Assembly: GCA_018241505.1 (NCBI GenBank) | Contig: JAFEDS010000001.1 | Span: forward strand, 1-64,000 | Origin: Pseudomonadota bacterium | Lineage (GTDB): Bacteria > Pseudomonadota > Gammaproteobacteria > Steroidobacterales > Steroidobacteraceae | Length of the DNA stretch: 64,000 nt | Direction of reading: 5' to 3' | Part shown: positions 1,600 through 30,369 of the stretch, piece by piece | Layout: every line of letters starts with the position of its first letter | How positions within the stretch are numbered: position 1 is the first letter of the stretch | Translations under genes and position numbers: made by a program | Notes under the pieces: generated by a model | What the model was told of the DNA's origin: nothing | Database searches by the model: none | What the model saw: the letters and a program-made list of their open reading frames with translations, nothing else

Positions 1600-1628
1600 T
1601 CCTTACGAGTAGGGACTAATACGTACGC
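1600..1628. promoter_or_regulatory. Candidate FixJ-type site between SCO-ccoN and the divergent gene
   Basis: TACGTA lies at 1620-1625, about 90 bases from the start codons of both divergent genes (SCO at 1529, minus; 1716, plus). On the minus strand it reads TACGTATTAGTCCC. It belongs to a family of similar elements in this window resembling the GTA(A/C)GTAG recognition element reported for FixJ. The assignment is inference. Confidence 0.4.
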
Positions 1629-1715
1629 TGTGGCGGCGCGTCAGTAGGAATGCGTATGGGATGGTGCGGCATGGGCCCCCTAAGCTGTGATCCATATTCG
1701 GTGGGGATCAAAAGA

Positions 1716-2123
1716 ATGAATGAGTTTCATCACGCGATCGTGTGGATTGATCGTCAACAGGCGCGAGTGCTGCGCTTTGGGCCGCAAGGAGTGGCATCCG
1801 CGATAGTGCACAGCAGCCATTGCCACGAGCATCTGCATCACAAGGCAAACTCCATCGACAGTGGCAAAGCCCCGGTCGATCGGGATTTTCTACAGCGAGT
1901 GGGCGCGTCATTGCCGCCCGCCGCAGCGATCCTGCTGACCGGTCCTGCAAATGCCAAGCGCGAGTTGCTGTCTCATCTGGAGGCGCATCAGAAGACGATT
2001 GCGAGCCACGTCGTCGGGCTCGAAACGCTGGACCATCCTTCCGACGGGCAGTTGGAGGCGTTTGCTCGCACGTATTTCCATACGGACGAACGCATGCGTT
2101 TGCGCGAAAGGATTCACGGGTGA
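1716..2123 (+). CDS. Translational machinery protein-like (eRF1-domain-like) small protein
   Basis: A 135-residue soluble protein resembling bacterial proteins annotated as translational machinery proteins, which carry a fold related to the eRF1/Dom34 central domain; their cellular role is not established. Recognisable features are the start HAIVWIDRQQARVLRF, a histidine cluster (HSSHCHEHLHHK), GPANAKRELLSHL and the ending LDHPSDGQLEAFARTYF. An upstream in-frame ATG at 1650 would add 22 unconserved residues; the ATG at 1716 has a GGGG ribosome-binding stretch and begins at the conserved region. It precedes the cytochrome c gene by 8 bases, suggesting co-transcription, possibly from the low-oxygen promoter near 1620. 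Confidence 0.7.
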   Translation: MNEFHHAIVWIDRQQARVLRFGPQGVASAIVHSSHCHEHLHHKANSIDSGKAPVDRDFLQRVGASLPPAAAILLTGPANAKRELLSHLEAHQKTIASHVVGLETLDHPSDGQLEAFARTYFHTDERMRLRERIHG

Positions 2124-2131
2124 GATCTGTC

Positions 2132-2824
2132 ATGGAACGCGCTTTGTGCCACGCGGCAGTCATGTTGCTGGCTGGTGCATGTGTGACTACCGCATCACTG
2201 GCAGTCGCGGCTGAAAGCGCCCGTACGGAATTGGACGCTGCGCTGCGCAGCAGGCCGAACCTCGATCACGGCGCCGAGCTTTTCAGAAACTGTGCCGTGT
2301 GTCACGGCTCAAACGGTGAAGGCACCCTGGATGGCGGTGTAGCCCGCATTGCCGGACAACACGCCGCTGTGATTGCGAAGCAACTCGTCGACTACCGTCA
2401 CGATCGCCGCTGGGACATCCGCATGGAGCATTTCGCGGATCAGCATCACCTGGTCGATCCGCAGTCCATCATAGACGTCGCCAGTTATGTTCACGGACTT
2501 TCCGCCGGCGTTGCGCCGGGCGTCGGTGATGGCGAACTGGCGCAACACGGGTCAGAATTGTATGCGGGGCGCTGCTCGGGCTGCCATGGCCCGGAGGGTG
2601 AAGGCAATGCCCAAAAGTGGATTCCCAGGATCGCGGGCCAGCACTACGAGTATCTCATGCGCCAGATTTACGATGCTGTCGATGGGCGTCGTCCGAACAT
2701 GAGCCGCGCGCACGTGAAAATGTTCGCGAAGCTCGATCGAGATGACATTGTGGGCTTGTCGGACTTTCTCTCGCGACTGGGCTCGCGGCCCACGGCGCCG
2801 GAGGCCGTCGCTCCGACGCGCTAG
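2132..2824 (+). CDS. Diheme cytochrome c (c4-like), periplasmic
   Basis: Periplasmic electron carrier of the cytochrome c4/c553 type, 230 residues. A signal peptide (about residues 1-27, ending AVAAES) precedes two haem-binding motifs, CAVCH (54-58) and CSGCH (148-152), each followed by a c4-type RIAGQH segment and an axial-Met candidate region (RMEHF, NMSRAH). It could feed the cbb3 oxidase or the nitrite reductase encoded nearby. The start ATG at 2132 begins the signal peptide; the frame is open further upstream but overlaps the preceding gene. Its stop overlaps the stop of the convergent fixJ-like gene (shared CTAG at 2821-2824). A paralogue at 16510-17163 is interrupted by a stop codon. 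Confidence 0.85.
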   Translation: MERALCHAAVMLLAGACVTTASLAVAAESARTELDAALRSRPNLDHGAELFRNCAVCHGSNGEGTLDGGVARIAGQHAAVIAKQLVDYRHDRRWDIRMEHFADQHHLVDPQSIIDVASYVHGLSAGVAPGVGDGELAQHGSELYAGRCSGCHGPEGEGNAQKWIPRIAGQHYEYLMRQIYDAVDGRRPNMSRAHVKMFAKLDRDDIVGLSDFLSRLGSRPTAPEAVAPTR

Positions 2825-3450
2825 CCCACGGAACCGGGCAATTCTTCGAGATCCATCATCATGCGAACCAGTTGCGCCAGGGAGGAGGCGTGCATCTTTT
2901 CCATCACGCGCGCCCGGTGGATCTCTACCGTCCGTTGGCTGACATTCAGGTCGGCGGCCATGACTTTATTCGGCTTGCCGCTGGTCACCAAAGCCAGCAC
3001 CTCACGCTCCCGTGGAGTCAGGGATTCAAAACGCTCGCGGACTTTCGCCTGTTCGCTCAATTCAGCTCGGTTCGATTGATCCTTGGCCAGCGCGCGTTGC
3101 ACGCGCTCGATCAGATCCTGGTCGCGAAAGGGCTTCTGCAGAAAATCGAACGCGCCTTGTTGCATGGCTTCGACTGCCATGGGTACATCGCCGTGCCCGG
3201 TGATGAAGATCACGGGGATGATCGCGCCTCGCATGTTGAGCTGTTGTTGCAGCTCCAGGCCACTCATACCTGGCATACGCACGTCCAGGATGAGGCAGCC
3301 CGGCTGTTGCGGGTCATAGGTGGAGAGAAACTCCTGGGCTGTGGACAGCGGTCGGGTGGCCAGGCCCAGCGACTTCATCAGCAGCCGGATCGAATTCCGG
3401 ACGGCGTCATCGTCATCGACTATGAATATGAGCGCGGGGCGGTCTTTCAT
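2821..3450 (-). CDS. fixJ: FixJ-like response regulator (receiver + LuxR HTH)
   Basis: Transcription factor of 209 residues. Residues about 6-120 are a receiver with the acidic pocket VDDDD (11-15), phosphoacceptor Asp56 in LILDVRMPGMSG, and a TG/K signature (FITGH, LQKPF). Residues about 140-200 form a LuxR/NarL-type helix-turn-helix (LTPREREVLALVTSGKPNK...RTVEIHRARVMEK), the FixJ subfamily arrangement. It overlaps the kinase gene by 4 bases (ATGA type), so the pair is translationally coupled. Rhizobial FixJ activates microaerobic and denitrification genes, and this copy lies between cbb3 oxidase and NO reductase genes. No FixK/FNR-type gene is visible in the window, so direct control is plausible. 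Confidence 0.9.
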   Translation of the reverse strand: MKDRPALIFIVDDDDAVRNSIRLLMKSLGLATRPLSTAQEFLSTYDPQQPGCLILDVRMPGMSGLELQQQLNMRGAIIPVIFITGHGDVPMAVEAMQQGAFDFLQKPFRDQDLIERVQRALAKDQSNRAELSEQAKVRERFESLTPREREVLALVTSGKPNKVMAADLNVSQRTVEIHRARVMEKMHASSLAQLVRMMMDLEELPGSVG

Positions 3451-4733
3451 GTGGATTCCATACGGTCCGGAATGAATCGGATCGTGAAGCGGGCACCGGA
3501 CGGTTGGTTGGGTTCGTATTCCAGCGTGCCCTCGTGAGCGGCAATGATAGTGCGGCTGATCGCCAATCCGAGTCCAGTGCCACTGGCCTTCGTAGTGCAG
3601 AAGGGATCGAAAATCCGCTCTTTGAGCGAATCGGGAACACCGGGGCCATTGTCGCTGATCGATATTTCAACGTGTCCTTCCGGTGTCCGGCGGGTGGCCA
3701 CGACGACTTCGGACTGAGCTGGAGCGCAGCGCGCGGGCGCCAATGCCTCGAGTGCATTGCGCACCAGGTTTATCACCACCTGTTGAATCTGTGCCCCGTT
3801 TGCCGAAATGGCCGGGAGGTCGGGAGCCAGGTCCTGCCGGAACTGAACCCCATGCGCCTTCGCATCGCTGTTCATGAGGGTGGCTAACTCGTCTATCAGC
3901 GTATTGACGTCGACGAGCGTGCGCGCGGTTTCTTCGCTGCGGGCGAGCGCTCTCATGCGCCGGATGATGTCTCCCGCTCGTACTGCCTGATCGGCAATGA
4001 GCTTCAAAGCGGAGCTGACCTCTTCGATATCCGGCTCAGGAAGGGCCAACAGGCGGTCGCATGCATGCGCATAGGTAGCCATGGCAGCCAGCGGCTGATT
4101 GAGCTCGTGTGCAATCCCGGAGGCCATTTCACCGACGGTTGCCAACCTGGAAACGTGCGTGAGCCGGTCCTGGAGCTGGTGCGATTCCGCTTCCATTCGG
4201 CGGCTCTGCGTGATGTCGTGGACGAGTCCGACGAAGCGGGGCGGATCCTCTCCGGCGATCACGCCCACTGACAGGTGGGCTGGGAAGAGGCTGCCGTCCT
4301 TTCGCCGGACGGTAACGTCGCGTCCCCTCCCGATGATGTGAGGTACGCGTGTGTCGACGTACCGGGCGAGGTGGCCATCGTGGGCTTTGCTGTCCTCGTC
4401 GTTCATGAGGACGCTGACATTCGTGCCGAGCACCTCGTCGCTGGTGAAGCCGAACATCCGCTCCGCGGCTCGATTGAAACTGCGGATTGTGCCCAGGTGA
4501 TCGATGATGATGATCCCGTCTACGGCGGCATCGAGCAGGGCACTGAGCTCTCGGGAGGAATGGCTATCGGTCACTGGGGGGCGCTTGGAATTCCGCAAAC
4601 CTGCATTCTCTGCCAAAGCGAGCGCGGATCTGTACGTATTTTCCGCAGTCACCCGGGCTGGTCGTAGCTTAGCGCCTTTGGGCATTGAATTGGATGCATC
4701 CACAGGTGCCCGCGGCACCGATGGACTCCACAT
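3447..4733 (-). CDS. fixL: FixL-like oxygen-sensing histidine kinase with candidate haem PAS
   Basis: Soluble sensor kinase, 428 residues, no membrane segments. Residues about 62-176 are a PAS domain. The segment RYVDTRVPHIIGRGRDV places His132 where FixL has its haem-ligand histidine (its PHIIGIGR segment), and the following RRKDGSLFP...LSVG also matches FixL, so haem-based O2 sensing is likely. Residues about 190-260 carry the dimerisation/H-box (GEMASGIAHELNQPL, His209), and the C-terminus has N box (VVINLVRNALEA), G1 (SDNGPGV) and G2 (GTGLGLAISR). It is coupled to the FixJ-like gene. The first roughly 55 residues are unconserved, so the start could lie downstream of 4733, in which case the TACGTA site at 4633 would be upstream of it. 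Confidence 0.88.
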   Translation of the reverse strand: MWSPSVPRAPVDASNSMPKGAKLRPARVTAENTYRSALALAENAGLRNSKRPPVTDSHSSRELSALLDAAVDGIIIIDHLGTIRSFNRAAERMFGFTSDEVLGTNVSVLMNDEDSKAHDGHLARYVDTRVPHIIGRGRDVTVRRKDGSLFPAHLSVGVIAGEDPPRFVGLVHDITQSRRMEAESHQLQDRLTHVSRLATVGEMASGIAHELNQPLAAMATYAHACDRLLALPEPDIEEVSSALKLIADQAVRAGDIIRRMRALARSEETARTLVDVNTLIDELATLMNSDAKAHGVQFRQDLAPDLPAISANGAQIQQVVINLVRNALEALAPARCAPAQSEVVVATRRTPEGHVEISISDNGPGVPDSLKERIFDPFCTTKASGTGLGLAISRTIIAAHEGTLEYEPNQPSGARFTIRFIPDRMEST

Positions 4734-4812
4734 TACGATGGCGCGCGTCCGCGGAACATACGTAGATTGCGCCTATTCGGTGCTTCCTATTGCGGAAAGT
4801 ACGTATTTCCCG
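4632..4812. promoter_or_regulatory. Cluster of three TACGTA elements around the fixL-like gene start
   Basis: TACGTA occurs at 4633-4638 (GTACGTATTTTCCGC), 4759-4764 (ATACGTAGATTGCGCC) and 4800-4805 (GTACGTATTTCCCGG). The last two lie 26 and 67 bases upstream of the annotated start at 4733. Three copies in 173 bases of GC-rich DNA is far above chance and suggests autoregulation of the FixLJ pair, although the outer two fall in annotated coding sequence. The binding protein is inferred. Confidence 0.45.
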
Positions 4813-5615
4813 GGCACTGGAGCCGCTATTCTCCGGTCGACGCTTTCCGCGAACGCTCGCTCGATCACGTAGTCGCCGCTGACGCCTATTTGCGGCGAAA
4901 CTGTGAAGCCGCGCGCGTCGAGCAACTGCCTGGTGTCGCTCAACATGCTCATGTTGCCGCAGATCATGAGGCGATCCGTCGCCACGTCCAGGGCAGCAAT
5001 CCCGAGGCCGCTGCAAAGCAGCCCCGACTCCAGAGCCGTTGTGACTCGACCGGGATGCTCGCAGGGCTCGCGCGACACACAGGGATAGTAGAGCAGCGCT
5101 GACTTGGCCAACTCTCCGAGGTACGGATCCTCGCGGACGGCGTGCAGAACAGAGTGCGCAAACGCGAGATCGGAGCGAAGGCGGACGCCATGAACCACAA
5201 TGATCTGCTCAAACAGATCGTACGCCTCCGGATCTTTCACGATGCTGAGAAATGGCGCAATGCCGGTTCCGGTCGCGAGCAGGAACAGTCGCTTTCCAGG
5301 GCGAAGATCGCGCAGCACCAGCGTGCCCGTCGGTTTGGAGCTGATGAGGACACCGGCCCCCGGTTGAACTCGTTGCAGTCGCGAGGTCAGGGCGCCGTCG
5401 GGGACCTTGATGCTGTAAAACTCCAGGTGCTCTTCGTGGTTGGCACTGGCAATGCTGTACGCGCGCACGATCTTGCGATCCGCCAGTTGCAAGCCGAGCA
5501 TCACAAACTGGCCGTTTTCGAAACGCAGGCTGTCCGGGCGCGTCGTTCTGAAGCTGAACAACTTGTCGTTCCAATGCCGAATGTCGATGACGGTCTCGGT
5601 TGTGTAGGCAGCCAC
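4773..5615 (-). CDS. fpr: Ferredoxin/flavodoxin-NADP+ reductase
   Basis: FAD-dependent reductase moving electrons between NADPH and ferredoxin or flavodoxin in the cytoplasm, 280 residues. The FAD-binding motif RAYSIAS (about residue 51), a phosphate-binding segment (DGALTSRL), the NADP-binding ATGTGIAPFLSI and CGNMSML are all present in the expected order, matching bacterial Fpr (about 258 residues). The usual C-terminus, around GDYVIERAFAE, is followed by some 20 extra residues. It lies downstream of norZ on the same strand, separated by an 82-base gap holding a strong hairpin (5651-5676) and a GTATGTAG element (5640-5647, minus strand), so it may be transcribed separately. Confidence 0.85.
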   Translation of the reverse strand: MAAYTTETVIDIRHWNDKLFSFRTTRPDSLRFENGQFVMLGLQLADRKIVRAYSIASANHEEHLEFYSIKVPDGALTSRLQRVQPGAGVLISSKPTGTLVLRDLRPGKRLFLLATGTGIAPFLSIVKDPEAYDLFEQIIVVHGVRLRSDLAFAHSVLHAVREDPYLGELAKSALLYYPCVSREPCEHPGRVTTALESGLLCSGLGIAALDVATDRLMICGNMSMLSDTRQLLDARGFTVSPQIGVSGDYVIERAFAESVDRRIAAPVPGKYVLSAIGSTE

Positions 5616-5639
5616 AGGGTCACTCCAAAATTCATACGT

Positions 5640-5647
5640 CTACATAC
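5640..5647 (-). promoter_or_regulatory. GTATGTAG element upstream of fpr
   Basis: The minus strand reads GTATGTAGACGTATG, 25 bases upstream of the fpr start at 5615. It matches the RTANGTAGA element found elsewhere in the window. Function is inferred from similarity only. Confidence 0.3.
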
Positions 5648-5650
5648 AGC

Positions 5651-5676
5651 AGCGGGGCGGCTCGTGCCGCCCCGCT
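5651..5676 (-). terminator. Strong hairpin downstream of norZ
   Basis: An 11-bp perfect inverted repeat (AGCGGGGCGGC, loop TCGT, GCCGCCCCGCT) lies 21 bases after the norZ stop. No T-run follows on the minus strand, so it may be a weak terminator or a 3'-end stabiliser that separates norZ from fpr. Confidence 0.55.
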
Positions 5677-5697
5677 TGATCATTGCGCAAGCTTCAC

Positions 5698-7962
5698 TCA
5701 GACCGGCAGCGCCCTCGCGGACACTGCGTTCTTGCGGCCCCGCATGAGCAGACGCACAGCGTAGGCTCCGAGGCACAGGCCGCCGACAGCAAACACGATG
5801 TCGCCCGGAACCCGTAGCCACACGAGAGTCTCCATAACACTGGAGTGAACGATCTCAGGCGAACGCGCGTACCACAGCCCCTTCGAGATGGCCGCGCTGG
5901 CCTGGTAGATGCCTGCCGGCACGAGGCTCATGAAGACCATCATGGCCAGGCCGATATTCAGGCTCCAGAAGCTCCACGCCAACAGCCTGTCGGCGTGCAC
6001 GAGGCGATCGAACAAGCCGCGCAGGCAGAACAGGGTCAGTCCGATTCCCAACATTCCATACACGCCGAACAGGGCGGCATGGCCATGGGCCGGGGTCAGA
6101 TTCAATCCCTGCACGTAGTACAGCGAGGCGGGCGGATTGATGGTGAATCCCAGCAGACCGGCGCCGACTGTGTTCCAGAAGCCGACTGCCACGAAGCACA
6201 GGATAGGCCAGCGATACGCGGCGACCCAGGGAGCCGCCTTGGAGCGTTGATAGTTCTCCCAACCTTCGATGCCCAGCAGCGCGAGGGGCACCACTTCCAG
6301 GGCGGAAAACACCGCGCCCACGGCGATCACCGATGTCGGCGTGCCCGTCCAATACAAGTGGTGCAGCGTACCGAGTATGCCGCCGAAGAGAAACACGATC
6401 GTCTCCGCAACGATTGCGCGATTGGCGCTGGCTGTCGCCACTAGCCCGAGCCGGGTGAAGATCAGAGCGACCACCGCGGTTGCAAACACCTCAAAAAAGC
6501 CCTCGACCCACAGATGCACCAGCCACCACCGCCAGTATTCGATCATCGAATAGTGCGTGTGTTGGCCCCAGGTCAGTGACGTTGCATAGAACGCCCCGAT
6601 GCAGGTCGCCGACAGGAACACCATGGCCACCAGGCCCCGCGTTTCGGACGGCTTCTTCAGTGCGGGCCACAGCGCACGTCCCAACAGGAACAACCAGAAG
6701 AGCAGGCCGACGAACAACAGGATCTGCCACACGCGGCCCATGTTGGTGTACTCGAGTCCCTGGGCGCCGAGCCAGAAGTCAAAGTGAAAACCGGCATGCG
6801 CCAGTGAACCGAGCCAACCGCAGGCGGTGGAGCCCACGACAATTGCCAGCAATGCGTAGAAGAGAGCATCGACTCCCAGCTTCTGCAGCTTCGGCTCGTG
6901 TCCGGAGAGCAGCGGGGCGACATACAGCCCCGTCGCGAGCCATGCAGTGGCGATCCAGAAGACGCCAAATTGCGTGTGTATGCTGCGGCTCACGGTATAG
7001 GGCAAAAGCTGGGCCAAGGGCAATCCGAAGAATGACCGGCCCTCGACAGCGTAGTGGGCCGTGATCGCGCCCATAGCGATCTGCACGAGAATCAAGCCGA
7101 TGACCACAAAGAAATATTTGCGCGTTGCTTTCATCGACGGCGTCGCGACTGCCTTCAGCAACGGGTCCGTGGCCGGTGTGACGGGATGCACTTCCTGCGG
7201 CTGGGCCGAATGCCACCAGACCATGGCGCCGATGCCCGCCAACAGCAGGATCACGCTGACCATGGTCCAGATTGCGCTGCCCTGGGTCATGGAGTTTCCG
7301 ACCAGGGGTTCGTAAGGCCAATTGCTCGTGTAGGACAAGCCGGTTTCGCCCGGACGATCGGTCGCCGAAGCCCAGCTCGACCAGAAGAAGAACGCGGCGA
7401 TTGCCTGGCGATCATCCGCTGAAGGCAGGGCGTCATCCGGCATCGCATATTCCGTCCGCAATTCCGTCAGAGATGTGTCATTGCCGAACAGACGCTCAAA
7501 GTGTTGCTTCACAGCCAGTACGGCCTGCGTCCGCTCGTCCGACAAGGAGAGCACCGAGCTCGACGCGTCATATGTGTTGGCCCGCATCGCCGTCTTGACG
7601 CGTGAGTCGATTACAGCGCGCGGTGCATCGCCCAGTTTCGCGTAGGGAATGCCGAACGCCCGGGTCGCCAGTACATCCTGGAGGGCAGTCGCCTCCCGGT
7701 GCAGCCAATCCGCGGACCAATCGGGAGCCACATAGCTACCATGCCCCCATACAGTTCCCAGTTGTTGCCCACCGGCTTTGAACCAGGCCTGTTGGCCGCG
7801 TTGGATCTGGTCGCGTGAGAAGATCGAGCCGCCAGAGTACCGGACTTCCTTGGGGATGGGCGGCGCAGCCAGGTATATTTCGCGCCCCAGCCACCCGAGG
7901 GCGGCGAATGACAGGATGAAGACGACGGCGAGTCCTCTCCATAGTTTGTTGGTTGAGCTCAT
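5698..7962 (-). CDS. norZ: Quinol-dependent nitric oxide reductase (qNOR)
   Basis: Single-subunit NO reductase (2 NO to N2O) using quinol, an inner-membrane protein of 754 residues, the usual qNOR length. The N-terminal periplasmic extension typical of qNOR (FSRDQIQRGQQAWFKAGGQQLGTVWGHG) is followed by many membrane helices. Histidine-rich segments of the haem-copper core are visible: SRSIHTQFGVFWIATAW, HLWVEGFFEVFATA (Glu-containing), HHLYWTGTP and LTPAHGHAALFGVYG. It can serve both denitrification after NirK and NO detoxification. A near-perfect NsrR box lies 41 bases upstream, and nsrR is divergently transcribed, so NO-dependent derepression is the likely control. Confidence 0.95.
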   Translation of the reverse strand: MSSTNKLWRGLAVVFILSFAALGWLGREIYLAAPPIPKEVRYSGGSIFSRDQIQRGQQAWFKAGGQQLGTVWGHGSYVAPDWSADWLHREATALQDVLATRAFGIPYAKLGDAPRAVIDSRVKTAMRANTYDASSSVLSLSDERTQAVLAVKQHFERLFGNDTSLTELRTEYAMPDDALPSADDRQAIAAFFFWSSWASATDRPGETGLSYTSNWPYEPLVGNSMTQGSAIWTMVSVILLLAGIGAMVWWHSAQPQEVHPVTPATDPLLKAVATPSMKATRKYFFVVIGLILVQIAMGAITAHYAVEGRSFFGLPLAQLLPYTVSRSIHTQFGVFWIATAWLATGLYVAPLLSGHEPKLQKLGVDALFYALLAIVVGSTACGWLGSLAHAGFHFDFWLGAQGLEYTNMGRVWQILLFVGLLFWLFLLGRALWPALKKPSETRGLVAMVFLSATCIGAFYATSLTWGQHTHYSMIEYWRWWLVHLWVEGFFEVFATAVVALIFTRLGLVATASANRAIVAETIVFLFGGILGTLHHLYWTGTPTSVIAVGAVFSALEVVPLALLGIEGWENYQRSKAAPWVAAYRWPILCFVAVGFWNTVGAGLLGFTINPPASLYYVQGLNLTPAHGHAALFGVYGMLGIGLTLFCLRGLFDRLVHADRLLAWSFWSLNIGLAMMVFMSLVPAGIYQASAAISKGLWYARSPEIVHSSVMETLVWLRVPGDIVFAVGGLCLGAYAVRLLMRGRKNAVSARALPV

Positions 7963-8002
7963 GACCTCTCACTTCGCTGCGACATATCGGCAGCTTGCTG
8001 TT

Positions 8003-8025
8003 AAGATCTATTTCATCTAGATCTT
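8003..8025. promoter_or_regulatory. NsrR operator between norZ and nsrR
   Basis: A perfect palindrome with 8-bp arms AAGATCTA / TAGATCTT and a 7-base spacer spans 23 bp, the same length and outline as the known NsrR consensus AAGATGCATTT-N-AAATGCATCTT. It lies between the divergent norZ and nsrR starts and probably controls both. Confidence 0.8.
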
Positions 8026-8088
8026 TACAGAGCATCCACCAACGACGGAGCCGGCGGAATACGCAGTTGTCCGTACCCCGGAAACCCC

Positions 8089-8553
8089 ATGCATCTCACT
8101 ACCTACACCGACTATTCGTTCCGTGTGCTGATGCGCCTCGCGTTGACACCCGACCGTCTGACGACAATCGCCGAGATTGCCGCTTCCTACGGCATATCCG
8201 AACACCACCTGATGAAAGTTGTGCACCAGTTGGGTGTGGCCGGTTACATCGAGACCCATCGCGGACGGGGCGGTGGCCTGAGGCTTGCAAAGGATGCGAC
8301 CGACATCACAGTCGGCGAAATCGTGCGTTGCATGGAGCCTGACCTGGGCTTGGTCGCCTGCTTCCGGGCCGGCGAGACTTGCTCGATTTCGAGCGCTTGT
8401 GCCTTGAGCCCTATCCTGGGCGAAGCGTTGGACGCTTTCCTGCGCGTGCTGGATGGCCGCACTCTCGATGACCTGATCTCGAGATCGCGGCAGTTGCGCA
8501 TGCTTTTGAAGATCGAGCCGGCGTCGCCGCCTGTGCCTGCGGGCCGGCGCTGA
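8089..8553 (+). CDS. nsrR: NsrR, Rrf2-family NO-sensing repressor
   Basis: Iron-sulfur transcriptional repressor of the Rrf2 family, 154 residues. The N-terminus (MHLTTYTDYSFRVLMRLAL) and winged helix (ISEHHLMKVVHQLGVAGYIETHRGRGGGLRL) match NsrR closely. Three clustered cysteines, Cys91, Cys98 and Cys104, fit the cluster ligands, which react with NO and release DNA. Spacing within the Cys cluster distinguishes it from IscR. It is divergent from norZ across an NsrR-type palindrome, and a second imperfect box precedes nnrS-nirK, so the likely regulon is norZ, nsrR and nnrS-nirK-nirV. The SirB2-like gene starts 3 bases after its stop and is probably co-transcribed. Confidence 0.92.
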   Translation: MHLTTYTDYSFRVLMRLALTPDRLTTIAEIAASYGISEHHLMKVVHQLGVAGYIETHRGRGGGLRLAKDATDITVGEIVRCMEPDLGLVACFRAGETCSISSACALSPILGEALDAFLRVLDGRTLDDLISRSRQLRMLLKIEPASPPVPAGRR

Positions 8554-8556
8554 ATC

Positions 8557-22953: not shown

Positions 22954-23026
22954 ATGACGCACCGACTGTTCACAGATCGCGGCCGAGGTCGGCTGGGGTG
23001 CAGCCTGTGCGGCCGCCCCCGTGGTG

Positions 23027-24655
23027 TTACTCGTAGATGAAACGATCTATGCAGTAGTCGTGCTGCTTCGGGAAAGGGATGATGTGCAGCCGCTGCAGGT
23101 TGTTGAATTCCTTTTCGCCAGTGCAGATTTCGATGAGATAGTCAGGTTTGATCGCGTTTACGTAATCCACCACGGAGCGTGTCGCCATGAGGGACCTGCC
23201 CGCCGCATCGTTCGCCAGACCATCCAGATTGACCACGTGGTCAAACAGGAAGTATGCGAATTCCCCGGCGCTGAACGCCACCACCTTGTAGTTTGGCTTG
23301 GCCGGAGTCACGTTTGCCAGAAACCAGTCGGCCACTTCAATCTTCTTGTGCTGCCAGGAGGCGGCGAAGCGCGCATCGTCCGAAGCGTCATACGGCTTCA
23401 ACCGGACATACCAGATGATGTCAGTCAGGAAATACAGCAGGCACGCGGCCGCAAGAATCGCCGTCGCCCGGTCGCTCGACCGGAACGCCGCGAGCTGCGA
23501 TTGCAACCATGCAACGGCGAATCCGCAGTTGAGCGCGACCAGTACTGGGAGATCGTAGACGTACCACACCGAGTAGTAGATGTCGTCGGAACGTCCGGCT
23601 TGCAACGCGCCGAAGACGAAGTTGCACAAAATGGCGCCAACATCGAAGCTCAGAAGAAGCAGCACTGCGCGCGAGCGCCGGCGCAGCAGTCCGAGTTTGA
23701 TCAGCCCGACCGCCGCGCCGGCCAAAGCCACGGCCATTACTGTCATCTGCAAAACAGAACGCACACCCTCCCTGGCTTGCAGCTGCAACAGGTTGAATCT
23801 ACTTTTCCCCGACAGTGAGAACTGCAGGCTCTCGAGGAGGTACTGCATGCCGATTTTGATTGAATGCAGGATGGATACCTGGTTCGGTGCGTTCATTTTG
23901 ACGAGCATCGACATCGGCAGCAGATGGCCGAAATACGCATGCGCGAACACGGCCCATGCGATCATCGGCAACAGGCAAGCACCCAGGGCAACGATCTTTT
24001 GCGCGCGGCCCTCCACGAAAATGAGCGCGATCCCCGCATAGAGAATCGATGCAGGGGCGATGCGGGTCAACAGCAAAAGGCCACACAGCAAGCCAACGGT
24101 GGCGGATCTCAACTTGCTTTGTTCTCTCGCGAGCACGGCCCAGATGATTGCCGCCAGCAAAAGCCCGGCAAGTGCATTTTCTTTGCCTGTGATGCTGCTG
24201 AAGAAAACCGTGTGCAGGGAAAGGAAACTGAGCGCAGTGACGCTCATACTCAAAGCTACGGCGGGGCGCCGCATGCCCGGCAGCGCCGGGTCAATGAGGC
24301 GGCCCAGCGCCAGTCCGGCAACGAGCGCGGTGAGCGCAAACAGCCAGCCATTGAGGTTGATGGCCAGTCGCACGAGCGATTCGAGAGTGCCGCAGAAGAG
24401 ACTGAGGAACGTCAGGAGCGTTTCGTATAACGGCTGGAACCCGGATGTTTTCTCACCTCCCAGCGTGAGCCCCGATCCATGCCCGGCGTTCCATGCGGGT
24501 ATGAAGTAGAAGAAGCTGTCGTCCTGAATCGAGCAGACCAGATTGGTGAACTTGCTGGACCACGAGTAGCTGAATACTCTTTCACCTGCCAGGACGATGA
24601 AAAAGAGGACGGGTGCCAGAAAATAAAGTAGCGGGCGCGGGAATTTTCGGAGCAT
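23027..24655 (-). CDS. Multi-pass membrane glycosyltransferase-like protein
   Basis: A 542-residue protein with about 11-13 hydrophobic helices (FLAPVLFFIVLAG, WLFALTALVAGLALG, LLCGLLLLTRIAPASILYAGIALIF, AVALAGAAVGLIKLG and others) and a C-terminal soluble part. The first periplasmic loop contains QDDSFFYFIPAWN, recalling the acidic-pair motif of GT-C glycosyltransferases (PMT/ArnT-like), which use lipid-linked sugars. The acceptor is unknown; decoration of secreted or cell-surface products is a guess. It is a single gene with no partners on its strand. Confidence 0.65.
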   Translation of the reverse strand: MLRKFPRPLLYFLAPVLFFIVLAGERVFSYSWSSKFTNLVCSIQDDSFFYFIPAWNAGHGSGLTLGGEKTSGFQPLYETLLTFLSLFCGTLESLVRLAINLNGWLFALTALVAGLALGRLIDPALPGMRRPAVALSMSVTALSFLSLHTVFFSSITGKENALAGLLLAAIIWAVLAREQSKLRSATVGLLCGLLLLTRIAPASILYAGIALIFVEGRAQKIVALGACLLPMIAWAVFAHAYFGHLLPMSMLVKMNAPNQVSILHSIKIGMQYLLESLQFSLSGKSRFNLLQLQAREGVRSVLQMTVMAVALAGAAVGLIKLGLLRRRSRAVLLLLSFDVGAILCNFVFGALQAGRSDDIYYSVWYVYDLPVLVALNCGFAVAWLQSQLAAFRSSDRATAILAAACLLYFLTDIIWYVRLKPYDASDDARFAASWQHKKIEVADWFLANVTPAKPNYKVVAFSAGEFAYFLFDHVVNLDGLANDAAGRSLMATRSVVDYVNAIKPDYLIEICTGEKEFNNLQRLHIIPFPKQHDYCIDRFIYE

Positions 24656-24833
24656 CCATTCGGCCTGTGTTTGAGTTGTGATTTGCGCCGCGGCCAGCCT
24701 CCGGCTGCTGTATCGATCTCCCGCCGGGAAACGGGAGCGTTAGCTCGGCACAATTAATGCATACTTTGGCATCGATAGCCGGGTGAAGCAAGCGGGGCCG
24801 TATTTGCGCTGGCTGCCGGGATTATGTGATACC
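24656..24833. other. Intergenic gap without recognised features
   Basis: About 180 bases between two minus-strand genes. No gene, hairpin or known operator was seen; it must hold the promoter of the membrane glycosyltransferase-like gene. Confidence 0.4.
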
Positions 24834-25463
24834 TCAGTGCTCGCGCGATGTTTCAGGCTGCACGCCAGCCGCAGGTGAGTCTCGTGCGTCCGATCCGGGC
24901 GCTTTTGAGTAAGGCAACACAGAGACACGGATACCGGCGAGTCGCTCATACAAGCGCCGCCTGCGGTGCAGAGGCACCCATTCGTATAGGAGCGCCTCCG
25001 CCGGTCTCCACAATGCAAGCCACGCAAGTATGATCAAGCCTTCATCGAGGGCTATGGGTAACACTCCCCACGCGCTGTAGGCCAGCCGTCGTGCCCCCAT
25101 GCTGATGAGGAAAATCAGCACCCCGCCGAGCAGGGCTAGCTGGGCCATCCAGAAGTGCTCGCGAAGCGCCCGGCGTTCCGAGGTGGCGAGCCGCTCATAG
25201 TAGGTTTCGAGAGCTGCCTGAAGATGCGCGGCCAAGGAAACTCCCTCCTGAGCGTAAACGTGCAGATGCCAGATGTCCGCGGACAGCTTGTCGCTGAACT
25301 CTCCCTCAATGAACTGCGCTGCATCTCGATCCAGGTCCCGGTCCCAAAAAGGTGACGGGTCGAGCGAGTTGAACATCTGCGCGACCGCTCGAACATGAAT
25401 GCTGACAGTTGCTGTGCTGCCGCGGGCCTTGTGATCCCGTAAGCTTGCGCGTCCTGATTTCAT
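24834..25463 (-). CDS. Conserved hypothetical membrane protein
   Basis: A 209-residue protein of a family found widely in proteobacteria but uncharacterised as far as I know. The N-terminal half is soluble and carries TVSIHVRAVAQMFNSLDPSPFWDRDLDRDAAQFI and an Asp/His-rich WHLHVYAQEG stretch; two hydrophobic helices follow (AQLALLGGVLIFLISMG and EGLIILAWLALWRPAEALLY). Its ATG overlaps the stop of the DUF4010 gene by 4 bases, so the two are translationally coupled and may work together. Confidence 0.65.
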   Translation of the reverse strand: MKSGRASLRDHKARGSTATVSIHVRAVAQMFNSLDPSPFWDRDLDRDAAQFIEGEFSDKLSADIWHLHVYAQEGVSLAAHLQAALETYYERLATSERRALREHFWMAQLALLGGVLIFLISMGARRLAYSAWGVLPIALDEGLIILAWLALWRPAEALLYEWVPLHRRRRLYERLAGIRVSVLPYSKAPGSDARDSPAAGVQPETSREH

Positions 25464-26749
25464 GGCGCGAGCCCCGCCACGGTCATGAGCAGCGCGAGCC
25501 AGCCTGCTATCAAACTGCCCAGGGCGGGCAGCGCGAGTCTGAGGGCGAGCCGACGCCGGCCAAAGAGAGCGCTGATGACAACCTTTGCCAGAAGGTTGCT
25601 CGCGACTCCCGCCAGCAGGGCATAGGTTCCCGTCCGGGCGCCGAGCTCCGGCATGAGCCGCGCCATGGATACGGTCATGGCATCAACATCGACAATCCCC
25701 ATCGCGGCGGCGCCTGCGATCGCGCCGGTGGACCCATACCAGGTGTTGATCGCGCGCCCGCCCAGAATGAGTAGGCCCATGGTGGCAGCCATACCCAGCA
25801 CGGACCAGAAGCTGAACGGATTTCTGAATTGCGCCGCCGGCTCGCCCGGCGATCGCGCGCGCCCGTAGACGGATACGAGCGCAAAGCCAACATTCAGTAC
25901 CACGCCCGCCAGCAGAGCCGGCGCAACCAATAGCGCGAGACTCGGGTTGAGAACACCGGTTATGGCGGCAACTCTGACAAACGACACCGCAGTCGCAAGC
26001 GATGTGCCGGCTGCGAGAACTCGTGGCGATCCTTGATCCGAAGCCGACCGTTTGGCGTTGTCGAACGCCACGGCAGTCGATGATACGAGGCCACCTGCCG
26101 CGGCGGCTATCAGGATGCCACGATGCTCACCGAGTACCTTCACCGCGACGTATCCCACAAAGGAGACAGATGCGAGTGCGATGGCGATGATCCAGACTTC
26201 GCGCGGATTGACGCCACCGAATGGCCCGATCGGGCCGGGAGGAACGACGGGGAGTGCAATGAATGTCATCGCCAACAACAACAGCGCCGACTCGAACTCC
26301 AGGCGGGTGATTCGCTTTACCCACTCGTGCAGGCCCTGCCGAAAAATGAGCAATGCCGCCGCCGCGACCGCGGCGGCCGCCGCTATCCGGACATCGCCGA
26401 TAGCCGCATAGGCCCCCAGGACGAATGTCAGTAGCGCTGCAATTGTCGTGGTCGCGGAGTACCGCCCCGTGGCCTTGTTTTCCTCCAGACCGAAAAGCGT
26501 GATGACGGCCGCGAAGGCGAGGAAAGCTATGCCAAGAAAGACGCCTCCCTCCAGTGTCAGCGCGTGGCTCGGAGCGGATGCCAGTGCACCCAGTAACCCT
26601 CCCAGCAAGCCGCAGATGGCAAACGTGCGCACGCCGGCGGCTCTGCTGCCGGATTGCGCTTCCCGAGTGCTCCAACCGCGCTCCAACCCAATGAGCAAAC
26701 CCATTCCCAAGGCGAGCGCCACGCGCGACAGTTGATTGTCGAAACTCAT
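25460..26749 (-). CDS. MgtC/SapB and DUF4010 family membrane protein
   Basis: A 429-residue integral membrane protein. The N-terminal MgtC/SapB-like region (about residues 8-140) contains ALALGMGLLIGLERGW and VRTFAICGLLGGLLG, and the rest is DUF4010 (WIIAIALASVSFVGYVAVKVLG, AAAGGLVSSTAVAFDNAKRS, GSTGAIAGAAAMGIVDVDAMTVSMARL). About 12 helices are visible. Roles in divalent cation or acid adaptation are suggested for the family but unproven. It lies between the broken ppk2 (1 base upstream) and the hypothetical membrane protein (4-base overlap), forming one operon. Confidence 0.82.
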   Translation of the reverse strand: MSFDNQLSRVALALGMGLLIGLERGWSTREAQSGSRAAGVRTFAICGLLGGLLGALASAPSHALTLEGGVFLGIAFLAFAAVITLFGLEENKATGRYSATTTIAALLTFVLGAYAAIGDVRIAAAAAVAAAALLIFRQGLHEWVKRITRLEFESALLLLAMTFIALPVVPPGPIGPFGGVNPREVWIIAIALASVSFVGYVAVKVLGEHRGILIAAAAGGLVSSTAVAFDNAKRSASDQGSPRVLAAGTSLATAVSFVRVAAITGVLNPSLALLVAPALLAGVVLNVGFALVSVYGRARSPGEPAAQFRNPFSFWSVLGMAATMGLLILGGRAINTWYGSTGAIAGAAAMGIVDVDAMTVSMARLMPELGARTGTYALLAGVASNLLAKVVISALFGRRRLALRLALPALGSLIAGWLALLMTVAGLAP

Positions 26750-26750
26750 A

Positions 26751-27541
26751 CTATCTCGCCAGCCAACCCGAACTGATCAATTTGAGGTTGAATCTGCGCG
26801 CGACATCCGGTGCGACCCTCGCTGCCCGTCGCTTCGCCCCTGGATAGGGAATCCGCGTCAGGATGTCCTGGATGACACTCAAGCGAGCCTCGTGCTTGCA
26901 ATCGGCCCGGACTACAGTCCATGGGGCATCGGGATGATGCGTGCGAGTCAGCATCGCATCGCGTGCGCTGCTGTAGTCGCCCCAATGTGCCCGCGCGGCT
27001 TCATCCACCGGACTCAACTTCCATTGTTTCAGGGGGTCGCTGCGTCGCTCGCGCAGCCGCGCCGCTTGTTCGCGCTTGCTGACATCGAGGTAATACTTGA
27101 GCAGAATGATTCCCGAGCGCACGAGCATGCGTTCAAATTCCGGCACCGCCTGCAGGAAGGCCTCGGTCTGCTTACGGGTGCAATAACCCATAACGCGTTC
27201 GACCCCGGCCCGGTTGTACCAGCTTCGGTTGAACAGCACGTCTCCTGGCCGCAGGGCAGGTGCGGTGCGAAACGTTGAAAGTACCATTGGGTCTGTTCGC
27301 GATCACTGGGTCTGCCCAGAGCGACGATTCTGACTTCACGGGGACTCAGGTGCTCGGCGATGCGTTTGATCACGCCGTCCTTGCCGGCCGCATCTCGTCC
27401 CTCCACAATCACCAGAACCTTCGAGTGGTTGGCGATGACGTGCCTGTGCAACTTAACCAGCTCGATCTGCAAAGATCGGAGTGTGCGGTCATAGTGCTTT
27501 TTGCTCGCCTTCAATGCCATGCGCCAATGTGCTCGATACAC
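26751..27541 (-). pseudogene. ppk2: Polyphosphate kinase 2 broken by a frameshift
   Basis: Two minus-strand frames together spell one PPK2. The first (from 27541, or the more conserved ATG at 27520) holds the Walker A segment VIVEGRDAAGKDGVIKRIAEHLSPREVRIVALGRPSDREQTQWYFQRF and runs out of homology at HLP near 27265. The second takes over with DVLFNRSWYNRAGVERVMGYC, REQAARLRERRSDPLKQWKLSP and PWTVVRADCKHEARL to the stop at 26751. One missing base (or two extra) near 27260 explains the switch. The usual Walker B DRSWYNR is NRSWYNR here, losing a catalytic Asp, which supports real decay over sequencing error. It precedes the DUF4010 gene by 1 base. Confidence 0.85.
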
Positions 27542-27575
27542 TCATGGCCACGAATCAGGATTTCTACGGATCCGC

Positions 27576-27728
27576 CTACAGCACCCGGTCCACTGATCTG
27601 AGCTCGGGATACTCCCGCAGTAAGCGCAGTGCCGCGCGCGGCAGTTCTTCCAAGGGTTCGTCCGATGGGCCTGACAACATCTCGCAAATGAGCTTGCGAC
27701 GCATGTTCGGCGTCCAAAAGCTTATCAT
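27576..27728 (-). CDS. Possible 50-residue small protein
   Basis: An open frame from ATG 27726-27728 to TAG 27576 encodes 50 residues: a short basic start (WTPNMRRKLICEMLSG) and an amphipathic acidic/leucine-rich second half (EPLEELPRAALRLLREYPEL). There is no clear ribosome-binding site and no family I recognise. It lies between the BON gene and ppk2 on the same strand. Treat as tentative. Confidence 0.3.
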   Translation of the reverse strand: MISFWTPNMRRKLICEMLSGPSDEPLEELPRAALRLLREYPELRSVDRVL

Positions 27729-27758
27729 ATGGTTCGAGATGCCGACGATGGCCCTGAA

Positions 27759-28004
27759 TTACGGCCCGATGGCGCGGCTGCAGGAGCTGAGCGGTCTGAC
27801 GGTGATGTGATTCGCCACCGCCGTGACACCCCGAATGCGGCGGACTGCGATTTCTGCCCGGTATTTGGCTAGATAGCTGTCGGCGAAGCCGCTCAAAGTC
27901 ACATCGCCGTTGTTGACATCGAGGGCGATGTCTGTTTCGTTGATATTGGAGGCTGAGCGCAACTTCGACTCGATCGCGAGCTTGATCTTGCGGTCTGATT
28001 TCAT
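27759..28004 (-). CDS. BON domain protein
   Basis: An 81-residue protein made of one BON domain: KIKLAIESKLRSASNINETDIALDVNNGDVTLSGFADSYLAKYRAEIAVRRIRGVTAVANHITV. BON domains occur in OsmY-type stress proteins and bind phospholipid or other surfaces. No signal peptide is visible, so this one may be cytoplasmic or the export signal is absent. The ATG at 28004 is chosen because AGGAGA precedes it at good spacing; an upstream extension to 28073 is unconserved. TACGTA lies 54 bases upstream. Confidence 0.8.
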   Translation of the reverse strand: MKSDRKIKLAIESKLRSASNINETDIALDVNNGDVTLSGFADSYLAKYRAEIAVRRIRGVTAVANHITVRPLSSCSRAIGP

Positions 28005-28056
28005 TTCGGTCTCCTGGCAGCCACGCTCATCATCGCTCAACCATCGCATCGGGAGG

Positions 28057-28064
28057 ATACGTAC
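28057..28064 (+). promoter_or_regulatory. ATACGTAC element upstream of the BON gene
   Basis: TACGTA at 28058-28063, 54 bases upstream of the BON start at 28004 (minus). It fits the recurrent candidate FixJ-type elements. Confidence 0.3.
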
Positions 28065-28090
28065 TGAACGCACCGGTCCTGCAGGACCGA

Positions 28091-28290
28091 TCAGGCCTGC
28101 GACGCGGCTGCCTGTATCGAGTCGACCGCCTTTTCCGCAATCATGATAGTGGGAGCATTCGTGTTCCCCCAGTGCTCAGCGGATTGCGAAAGCGCAGATC
28201 CTCAACGGACAACGGGCCGCCGACTCCGTGGTATTGATCGGCACCGCGAGACTGGTCCTCCGCCTTGCGGAAGTAGGGTAATACCGCCTC
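28091..28290 (-). pseudogene. Remnant of a GMC-family oxidoreductase
   Basis: On the minus strand, VLPYFRKAEDQSRGADQYHGVGGPLSVEDLRFRNPLS is the middle of a GMC flavoprotein (choline dehydrogenase type). Directly after it, in another frame, NTNAPTIMIAEKAVDSIQAA and ASQA end at a TGA (28091-28093), which is the GMC C-terminus. Some 350-400 intervening residues and the FAD-binding N-terminus are absent, so only two scraps joined by a large deletion remain. Confidence 0.75.
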
Positions 28291-28403
28291 ATCGACAAAC
28301 CGCAGCGGCTCGCGACGCTCCTGGGCGTGCTCGCCCAACTGGCGTGCCGAGCCATTCGAGTTGGAGTTGAAGTCCAATACTCTACATGGGAGAGTGGATC
28401 ACA

Positions 28404-28976
28404 ATGGTTACCGACCCCCTGGAAACGTCGCGCCCTCTACATGAACCGGGCCGTTACGGAACGCCTGCAATCGTGCTTCATTGGCTCACTTTCGCTCTTG
28501 TGGTCATCGTCGGTGTCCTCGGGCTCCTGCACGATGACTGGCCGAAACAGACGCAGTCATTCTGGATCAACATGCATGCCGTGCTGGGGACGTTTCTCTG
28601 GCTCATGCTGCTGGCCCGGCTTACCTGGCGGATTCGCCAACCGCCACCACCGGCTGCGGCAAACCTGAGTCGTTTCGCGCTCCGGTTTTCCAGCCCGGTG
28701 CACATGGCCCTCTATGCGCTGCTGTTCGTCATCCCCCTGGTGGGGTTCGTCACCTTCGTCTATCACGGTCGGGTGTTCGATTTTGGCTTTTTCCAGATCG
28801 ATTTCGGTATCGAAAAGAACCGCGCCGTCTTCCATCCGACGGAAGATATTCACGGTTACCTGGCGTACGCACTCTTTGCGTTGGCAACATTGCATGCCGC
28901 GGCCGCGCTTTGGCACCATTTCTACCTGCGAGATGGAGTTCTGCAGCGAATGTGCTTGTCGCGCCGCAAAATGTGA
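28404..28976 (+). CDS. Cytochrome b561-family membrane protein
   Basis: Di-haem b-type membrane cytochrome (190 residues) of the bacterial b561 (CybB-like) family, proposed to take electrons from quinol. Four helices carry the expected histidines: TPAIVLHWLTFALVVIVGVLGLL, INMHAVLGTFLWLMLLARLTWR, SPVHMALYALLFVIPLVGFV and EDIHGYLAYALFALATLHAAAALWHHF. The ATG at 28404 is used because GGGAGAG lies about 9 bases upstream, although an earlier in-frame ATG is at 28386. It converges on the beta-helix gene (19-base gap). Confidence 0.85.
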   Translation: MVTDPLETSRPLHEPGRYGTPAIVLHWLTFALVVIVGVLGLLHDDWPKQTQSFWINMHAVLGTFLWLMLLARLTWRIRQPPPPAAANLSRFALRFSSPVHMALYALLFVIPLVGFVTFVYHGRVFDFGFFQIDFGIEKNRAVFHPTEDIHGYLAYALFALATLHAAAALWHHFYLRDGVLQRMCLSRRKM

Positions 28977-28995
28977 GCCTCGCAACAGCGGCCTT

Positions 28996-30255
28996 TCAGG
29001 GCCGGATGGGGAACAGCGTTGTCGCAAACGGCGTCACCTTTGTTGTGACCGTGCTGAAGAAATCGCAACCCTTTCCACCGTTGTCCGCGGGGTCCGGTCC
29101 GGGCCCCCGCGCGCTGCCCCAATAGTTATTTGTGGCGTCCGCGGGCTGGTCCATACCGACGTTGATAACTCCGCAGTTCGGGCTATCGAGCACAGGCCCG
29201 GGGTTGTTTGAGACACCGCTGTTTCCATAGATATTGTTCGTGCGGATTACAATGTTGTCATTGAACCCGAGCATGAACACCCCCGCGCCGGTATTTCCGA
29301 CGATCGTGTTGTCCCTGATCCGAACGGACTGGCTCAGGCCCTGAATGGCAATGCCGTGGCCAATGTTGCCGGTTACGGTGTTGTTACGGATCTCTGCGTC
29401 GAAGACGCCCGACAGCCGCACTCCCGCGCCGTTGTTGCTGGAAACACTATTGATCAAAAGTGCGTGAAAGCTCGGTCCGCGGAATTCATATCCGCCACCC
29501 GCGTTGCCTGAGGCCGTGTTTTCAGTTACCAACACCGTTTCGCCGACTCCGCGCATTTCGTCGTGAGAAGCGCTGAAGCCGACATCATTTTGTATTGCAG
29601 TGTTGCCGCGGAGTGTCACAGTCAGGGGAATGGGAAACGGCGTGTAGGACTGGTCGATGACTTCAACGTCGAACCCGCTCCGGCGATTGCCACGCGCAAT
29701 GTTGCCTATGATTGTTCCAGCGGAAACCGATGATGTGACGTGCACCCCGTCACCGCCACTTCCCGCGATAGTGAAACCAGCTCCATCCGCTCCGAGTGTT
29801 GTCCCCGTACTGGTAATGCTGATGACATTGTTCACCATTCCGTCGGCCGACTCCGGGTCCGCCCGGCGGTTGTTGCCGGCATCGATGATGGTGTCATCGG
29901 CGCCGTGTAGCGACAGAATCTTGATCGCTTTGTTGACACAAATGAGGCAGGTGCGGCCGTTCCCATCGGTGCCCGGTCGTTCCTCTCCCGGACCGGTAAA
30001 AGCTCCGTCTCCGTTCAGGTCGCCATACAGGCCGGCACCGACCTCGATCACGTCGCTTGGGTTGGCTTTCGCAACGGCAGCGCCTATGGAACGGCATGGT
30101 TTGTCTCGCGTGCCACAGGACGCCCCATCCAATCCTTGATTGGAAACCCACCAGGTGGTGCTCGACGCGAATACGGCAGGGGCGGCGATCACGGCGGCAA
30201 GGACGAGACCGTTGGTTGGGAGATTAGATTTCCGACGCAAGGCGTGCGGGTTCAT
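28996..30255 (-). CDS. Secreted right-handed beta-helix repeat protein (paralogue 1)
   Basis: A 419-residue exported protein. After a signal peptide ending near AVFASS comes a pectate-lyase-like cap with TKPC-type KPCRSIGAAVAKANPSDVIEVGAGLYGD and a Ca-binding-like LNGDGAFTGPGEE, then about ten Asn-rich coils (GNIARGNRRSGFDV, GNTAIQNDVGFSAS, NNTVTGNIGHGIAI, DNTIVGNTGAGVFM, TNNIYGN) and a closing NNYWGSARGPGPDPAD. No catalytic site is recognisable. The protein at 51042-52295 has the same architecture. GGAG 9 bases upstream supports the ATG at 30255. Confidence 0.8.
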   Translation of the reverse strand: MNPHALRRKSNLPTNGLVLAAVIAAPAVFASSTTWWVSNQGLDGASCGTRDKPCRSIGAAVAKANPSDVIEVGAGLYGDLNGDGAFTGPGEERPGTDGNGRTCLICVNKAIKILSLHGADDTIIDAGNNRRADPESADGMVNNVISITSTGTTLGADGAGFTIAGSGGDGVHVTSSVSAGTIIGNIARGNRRSGFDVEVIDQSYTPFPIPLTVTLRGNTAIQNDVGFSASHDEMRGVGETVLVTENTASGNAGGGYEFRGPSFHALLINSVSSNNGAGVRLSGVFDAEIRNNTVTGNIGHGIAIQGLSQSVRIRDNTIVGNTGAGVFMLGFNDNIVIRTNNIYGNSGVSNNPGPVLDSPNCGVINVGMDQPADATNNYWGSARGPGPDPADNGGKGCDFFSTVTTKVTPFATTLFPIRP

Positions 30256-30329
30256 GGGCGCTGCTCCAGGTGTCACGGGAGACCTGGTGCGACGTTTACT
30301 CGAAACGGCGAGCAGCGCTATTCGTGCTT

Positions 30330-30337
30330 GTACGTAG
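30330..30337 (+). promoter_or_regulatory. GTACGTAG element upstream of the beta-helix gene
   Basis: GTACGTAG is an exact match to the FixJ GTA(A/C)GTAG element. It lies 75 bases upstream of the beta-helix start (30255, minus) and just past the stop of the VOC gene. Confidence 0.4.
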
Positions 30338-30369
30338 CGCGAGCCTACCTGTCGAACGCTCGGCTCGTC

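Follow-up and report, generated by a model that had tools for sequence, protein, structure and literature searches.

The stretch of DNA analyzed here (hereafter the window) comprises 64,000 nucleotides of a Steroidobacteraceae genome (Gammaproteobacteria; GenBank assembly GCA_018241505.1, contig JAFEDS010000001.1, positions 1 to 64,000; C11:1-64000 in our numbering of the 46 contigs, 7.88 Mb in total). Its first 31 kb carry genes for a FixL-like kinase and a FixJ-like response regulator, together with a recurring element with the core TACGTA, which the original prediction took for the mark of a candidate FixJ regulon. Our analysis indicates that these elements are, with high probability, binding boxes of a FixJ-type regulator, through which a FixLJ-like system would directly drive an island of genes for low-oxygen respiration and survival.

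Gene calling relied on a small codon-position Markov model, which overlooks some genes (for example, the cytochrome c gene at 2132-2824 and the SirB-family gene at 8557-8976), and names were assigned from Pfam and NCBIfam. The genes named in the window encode CcoN, SCO1, cytochrome c, the FixJ-like and FixL-like proteins, a ferredoxin reductase-like protein, NorB, an NsrR-like Rrf2 protein, a SirB-family protein, a copper nitrite reductase with a cytochrome domain, NnrS, CBS proteins, GNAT, a thioredoxin-like protein, DUF3570, ApbE, a propeller protein, MgtC/DUF4010, PPK2, BON, cytochrome b561 and a beta-helix protein. The features on which the argument turns are the following:

1..31000, no strand: right third of the low-oxygen-type island, continuing leftward on contig C13 from 161471 to ~93000 (contig overlap, split ccoN, box density)
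3..890, minus strand: N-terminal part of ccoN (cbb3 oxidase subunit I), with the remainder at C13:160952-161470 (profile match)
2821..3450, minus strand: FixJ-like response regulator, receiver plus LuxR/GerE helix-turn-helix (HTH) (Pfam, NCBIfam, PDB)
3447..4574, minus strand: FixL-like sensor histidine kinase with one haem-type PAS domain (Pfam, PDB match)

Besides its receiver and GerE/LuxR HTH domains (Pfam), the window regulator has a recognition helix identical to that of FixJ at 10 of 16 positions and to that of StyR at 6 of 16. The kinase carries HisKA and HATPase_c domains (Pfam), and its PAS domain, best matched by the B. japonicum-type FixL haem domain (1dp6), retains in alignment with it the FixL haem-pocket residues HD...RY...PHIIGxGR. 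Because both proteins fall below the NCBIfam equivalog cut-offs, we call them FixL-like and FixJ-like; the kinase scores 350 bits against a cut-off of 850 for FixL, a model of the full-length rhizobial form, and matches it only from position 123 of 485. A second pair lies on C13, with a regulator 60% and a kinase 61% identical to those of the window. In this second kinase (C13:115905-116993; L102:5878-7026) the haem histidine is kept and three other haem-pocket positions are changed as judged by eye, namely Arg206 to Gln, His214 to Arg and Arg220 to His, in B. japonicum FixL numbering. Two more distant FixJ-like regulators are found at C22:61561-62142 (45%) and C8:119030-119602 (43%).

The motif was derived from other species. 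Of 290 loci in other genomes that surround homologues of the window regulator, the best 80 (homologues 65-80% identical to it) supplied intergenic DNA, which was dereplicated to 477 regions (83 kb). An unseeded count of hexamers in these regions placed TACGTA first (56 strand counts versus 8.9 expected) and TACCTA second (34 versus 6.4), with no enrichment of either within the genes of the same loci (60 versus 78 and 42 versus 45, respectively). The flanks of 15 TAGGTAG instances shared TTnCCGC. Seed-and-refine from TA[ACG]GTAG, a seed chosen after the hexamer count, yielded a 20-bp matrix with the consensus CnaTAcGTAgtTtcCgCaAt, refined on the 70 best sites without the genome under study. An expectation-maximization motif search over all intergenic regions was also tried and was dropped, as it drifted to AT-rich or degenerate patterns.

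Intergenic enrichment held up in a held-out test with two folds, divided by locus, in which closely related loci may sit on both sides. At 13 bits, the first fold gave 22 intergenic hits in 41 kb and 1 genic hit in 549 kb, the second 24 in 43 kb and 7 in 529 kb, and column-shuffled matrices gave 0.8 and 0 intergenic hits. Across cut-offs of 13, 15 and 17 bits, the intergenic density was 19 to 296 times the genic one wherever genic hits existed (one fold had none at 15 and 17 bits), and shuffled matrices yielded 0 to 0.8 intergenic hits throughout.

The matrix resembles published FixJ sites. The consensus from systematic evolution of ligands by exponential enrichment (SELEX) is reported as GTAGTTTCCC and GTAMGTAG, and the gel-shift site as TAAGTAATTTCCCTTA (PMC4999443); a Rhodopseudomonas palustris PfixK with GTACGTAG is described as strongly bound by FixJ (PMC13327599). 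Aligned by eye, the new matrix and the SELEX and gel-shift sites have the core TAmGTArTTTCC in common (PMC4999443). The recognition of GTA(A/C)GTAG by FixJ, cited in the original prediction, agrees with the published GTAMGTAG, which the new motif matches (PMC4999443).

All 13 positions listed in the original prediction do carry TACGTA or the close form described there, to within 1 base. However, the motif given as RTANGTAGA proved to be a 20-bp box, of which TACGTA is a mere core. Scored with the matrix, 7 of the 13 sites are strong (1620, 4633, 4800, 13157, 13869, 17235 and 30330; 15.2-23.7 bits, per-position P <= 3.1e-6), 2 are middling (4759 at 11.4 bits and 15879 at 13.0 bits) and 4 are weak: 5640 (5.3 bits, ferredoxin-NADP reductase-like gene), 15193 (8.2, CBS), 22946 (9.2, propeller) and 28057 (9.3, BON). 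Bases 1-31000 hold five more boxes, scoring 14.8-16.1 bits, that had been overlooked (1590, 8060, 14911, 20294 and 27565), among them boxes preceding PPK2, norB/NsrR, the gene at 20375 and, as a second copy, SCO1-ccoN. Of the secreted-protein genes drawn into the predicted regulon, the beta-helix gene keeps a good box (30331) and the propeller gene has only the weak one. Two copies cited earlier as lying inside genes, 59182 and 63488, score -3.8 and 10.9 bits, and the scan of the window further returns 36872 (14.7 bits, at a gene start) and 12067 (13.3 bits, in-gene). The boxes are:

1587..1606, plus strand: FixJ-type box, 14.8 bits, 64 bp upstream of SCO1 (ccoN next)
1609..1628, minus strand: FixJ-type box, 16.4 bits, 93 bp upstream of SCO1 (ccoN next)
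4630..4649, plus strand: FixJ-type box, 20.9 bits, 62 bp upstream of the FixL-like gene
4748..4767, minus strand: middling FixJ-type box, 11.4 bits, upstream of the FixL-like gene
4789..4808, minus strand: FixJ-type box with the highest score in the window, 23.7 bits, inside the 3' end of the reductase gene and 228 bp ahead of the FixL-like gene
8057..8076, plus strand: FixJ-type box, 15.5 bits, 101 bp from norB on one side and 26 bp from the NsrR-like gene on the other
13147..13166, minus strand: FixJ-type box, 21.5 bits, 64 bp upstream of nnrS
13867..13886, plus strand: FixJ-type box, 16.3 bits, 97 bp upstream of a CBS-domain gene and 126 bp from a divergent pyridoxamine-oxidase-fold gene
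14908..14927, plus strand: FixJ-type box, 15.1 bits, at the start of an uncertain 90-aa open reading frame
15869..15888, minus strand: FixJ-type box, 13.0 bits, upstream of the GNAT gene
17233..17252, plus strand: FixJ-type box, 15.2 bits, 133 bp from a cytochrome c gene on one side and 125 bp from a thioredoxin-like gene on the other
20291..20310, plus strand: FixJ-type box, 14.9 bits, 78 bp upstream of the gene at 20375 (universal stress protein-like by eye, with no Pfam or NCBIfam match)
27554..27573, minus strand: FixJ-type box, 16.1 bits, upstream of the PPK2 frame opening near 27520 and inside a doubtful called open reading frame
30320..30339, minus strand: FixJ-type box, 15.7 bits, ahead of the gene for a secreted beta-helix (NosD-like) protein, at a distance of ~78 bp if translation starts at ATG 30255

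The box at 4630..4649 suggests autoregulation of the FixL-like gene.

In the other species, 117 of 151 sites of at least 14 bits lie 40-140 bp before start codons, compared with 82 expected under random placement in the same regions, and these 151 sites, which were not dereplicated, show no strand preference (76:75). In the island of the genome under study, 24 of 35 sites of at least 12 bits sit 54-109 bp upstream, a spacing that would fit a dimeric activator. The 97 dereplicated genes behind boxes were compared with 100 box-free control genes drawn from 294 in the same loci. HisKA kinases made up 21 of the 97 versus 6 of the 100 controls, and universal stress proteins 10 versus at most 2, the latter bound reflecting their place outside the 25 commonest control families, the last of which has 2 members. 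A box of at least 12 bits precedes ccoN orthologues in 6 of 6 measurable promoters of the fetched loci. The same holds for 3 of 5 BON orthologues, so the inclusion of BON in the predicted regulon gains from relatives what it lacks in the weak site of the window. Orthologues of many other island genes have few or no boxes of this strength.

The set of sites extends beyond the window. Contigs C11 and C13 very probably adjoin in the chromosome, because C13 ends with the 24 bp that open the window and each of the two contigs holds one part of ccoN (profile positions 2-295 on C11 and 289-461 on C13). The resulting island spans ~99 kb (C13:93000-161471 plus C11:1-31000) and carries two FixL/FixJ-like pairs and about two dozen boxes. 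Its C13 part contains genes for several universal stress proteins, CBS proteins, Hsp20, BON, PFK and a carbohydrate phosphorylase (Pfam), as well as cation ATPases, a beta-CASP nuclease, a PRPP synthetase-like protein and GroEL-like proteins. The matrix scan covered 2.03 of the 7.88 Mb (26%). At 13 bits or more, it found 24 boxes in the 14.3 kb of intergenic DNA of the island and 4 in the 206 kb of intergenic DNA elsewhere, a background rate that predicts 0.28 boxes for the island. Genic matches at this cut-off numbered 5 in 85 kb inside the island and 34 in 1.72 Mb outside, and under earlier, smaller island limits column-shuffled matrices averaged 42.7 outside, where the real matrix gave 34. 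Some outside stretches were chosen for their pattern matches, which biases against enrichment; some genes were overlooked, and therefore the intergenic length of the island is overstated, with the same effect. Within the scanned 26%, nearly all boxes fall in this one island, which reaches past the window. No promoter element was found more often in this compact low-oxygen-type island than the FixJ-type box. The sites form a real FixJ-type set that outreaches the window to one side and, inside it, is tighter than the original prediction had it.

Beyond the genome under study, ccoN promoters provide a further test case. CcoN scored above the family cut-off in 26 of 80 relatives, 24 of which have a regulator at least 55% identical to that of the window. 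In these 24, the ccoN promoter carries a box of at least 13 bits in 13 (column-shuffled mean 0.3, highest 3) and of at least 10 bits in 18 (mean 2.1, highest 6); 11 of the 13 boxes lie outside the training loci. The island could instead be run by FNR/FixK-type regulators or by NsrR, with the FixJ-type boxes tuning a few genes only. The genome does have 11 Crp-type HTH matches over the cut-off, though none of the 20 listed is on C11 or C13, all being on other contigs. Moreover, TTAAGATCTATTTCATCTAGATCTT before norB (7999-8028) and the related TTAAGATCTACTTTAGATA before nnrS (13108-13131) are palindromes that we take to resemble NsrR sites; nnrS may accordingly respond to both nitric oxide and the FixJ-type box. 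However, no FNR box within one mismatch occurs in the intergenic DNA of the island, and among the 24 relatives with the regulator just 1 ccoN promoter contains such a site, which makes control by FNR, FixK or NsrR quite improbable as the main account. Perfect FNR boxes before ccoN were found in the remaining two of the 26, one with a 49% identical regulator (G061, two boxes) and one with no regulator at E 1e-60 (G074, one box). These cbb3 promoters may be a natural example of the exchange of one oxygen regulator for another, although the ccoN promoter of G074 also has a 13.3-bit box-like match, which speaks against replacement, and the comparison group of two genomes is too small for a firm claim.

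Several results weigh against a FixJ-type regulon. In the genome under study, the strict pattern TAVGTAGWWNCC has 11 matches, 3 of them in the window, versus 36 for the reversed pattern; across the order, TASGTAGTTTCC has 71 matches (in 63 of 296 genomes, with none in the genome under study) versus ~102 reversed in a hand count. A sequence-only covariance model run over the whole genome returned one match (E 1.34). A box of at least 13 bits is missing from 11 of the 24 ccoN promoters, and one of at least 12 bits stands before just 22 of 52 homologues of the kinase, 29 of 83 of the regulator, and 0 of 2 PFK and 0 of 3 GroEL-like orthologues. Genes for response regulators (receiver domain) occur about equally often with and without an upstream box (10 of 97 versus 12 of 100 controls). 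The island limits were drawn after the hits were known, and 74% of the genome lay outside the matrix scan. Finally, the window regulator scores 241.3 bits with NCBIfam FixJ, under the cut-off of 255, and its best full-length PDB match is StyR (1yio, 176.5 bits) ahead of FixJ (5xso, 161.9 bits).

The lack of excess in the strict pattern counts would fit an alternative, that the TACGTA copies arose by chance in AT-rich intergenic DNA. The hexamer alone is weak evidence, and 4 of the 13 listed sites are off the long motif. It occurs 510 times in the 7.88 Mb, or once per 15.5 kb, half the rate of about one per 8 kb estimated in the original prediction. The window has 11 copies, including an in-gene one at 23159 absent from the earlier list. 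Bases 1-31000 hold 9 versus 2.0 expected (Poisson P 2.4e-4, for a stretch picked by the finding itself), and 2 of the 9 (4800 and 23159) fall within called genes. The reversed-pattern controls lack dinucleotide matching, and real boxes seldom equal the consensus; a further pattern, TACGTAGANNNCRCR, has 5 matches in the genome and 0 in controls. The motif is too short for the covariance statistic. The held-out tests, shuffled-column controls and island clustering all oppose chance, which we consider extremely unlikely.

The resemblance to StyR raises another alternative, namely that the boxes are sites of a different LuxR-type regulator, resembling NarL or StyR, or solely of the second FixJ-like paralogue, the window pair having other targets. 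The island is indeed shared by two paralogues, and boxes at C13:107552 and 107576 sit directly upstream of the C13 regulator gene. However, the motif came from loci of homologues close to the window regulator, a 20.9-bit box precedes the window kinase gene, and the boxes fit FixJ sites. Around the 45% and 43% paralogues, no intergenic box of at least 14 bits was found in the scanned stretches (C22:45001-80000 and C8:10001-370000). Ownership of the boxes by such other regulators is therefore improbable.

We thus favor control by the FixLJ-like system. The link drawn in the original prediction between the sites and the window pair is supported by the independently derived motif and its fit to published FixJ boxes, by the conserved haem pocket and by where the boxes lie, clustered near FixJ homologues, although the extent of the set and several of its sites had to be corrected. 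Judging from homology, site match and geometry, a fall in oxygen would lead the FixL-like haem kinase (3447-4574, or its C13 paralogue) to phosphorylate its FixJ-like partner (2821-3450, or its C13 paralogue). The regulator would then bind 20-bp boxes around TAcGTAgtTtcCgCaAt, mostly 40-140 bp before start codons, and activate the island, including the gene for its own kinase, SCO1-ccoN, norB/NsrR, nnrS and the universal-stress, CBS, BON and other survival genes. Which of the paralogues binds, activation as opposed to repression, and the response to oxygen itself are all parts that we infer. A more tentative extension, which we regard as conceivable but somewhat doubtful, is that in this order of Gammaproteobacteria the FixLJ-like system, without FixK, took over work done elsewhere by FNR or FixK, controlling cbb3 and the survival island directly, and that the two linked pairs, the second with its altered haem pocket, act through a shared set of boxes, each pair at its own oxygen threshold.

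Like the rhizobial FixLJ systems of Sinorhizobium, Bradyrhizobium and Rhodopseudomonas, the predicted system combines a haem PAS kinase with a receiver/LuxR regulator and has the core TAmGTAr-TTTCC in its boxes (PMC4999443, PMC13327599). Few direct FixJ targets are known in rhizobia, fixK being the conserved one (PMC4999443), and FixJ is described as a narrow switch handing over to FixK, whereas here the box is a recurrent promoter element of an island. Unlike in rhizobia, the boxes directly precede cbb3, nnrS, kinase and stress genes, in a gammaproteobacterium, and the island contigs hold none of the listed Crp-type matches. FixLJ is also found outside rhizobia in the Burkholderia cepacia complex, where the system is oxygen-responsive, with a regulon of ~11% of genes, but keeps fixK and has motility and biofilm among its regulated traits; the passages describing it give no FixJ box to compare (PMC5234846). 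The C13 part of the island contains a cluster of universal stress protein, CBS, BON, Hsp20 and metabolic genes (Pfam). We take this combination as defining an island like the lxa locus of B. cenocepacia. Further gene content of that locus and of the mycobacterial DosR regulon resembles the island, and the DosR box has a different sequence. Both are sets of universal stress and survival genes raised at low oxygen, and the regulator suggested for lxa is a different one, BCAM0049/FixK (PMC6127331). Among the literature matches listed, titles and abstract openings showed no publication on this island or on the motif in Gammaproteobacteria. The host group is known mainly from metagenome-assembled genomes, in which the matrix offers a direct way to predict low-oxygen regulons.

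A 20-base stretch, GCGCACATCGCGGTTTCTAC, is identical at the nnrS (13141-13160) and GNAT (15863-15882) boxes and is perhaps a copied promoter segment. The PPK2 gene (26751-27541, minus strand) is read in two overlapping frames, with its N-terminal half at 27029-27541 and its C-terminal half at 26751-27302; this is a frameshift, real or assembly-made. The cytochrome c gene missed by the gene caller (2132-2824, plus strand) encodes a two-domain protein, with Pfam Cytochrom_C matching in two stretches.

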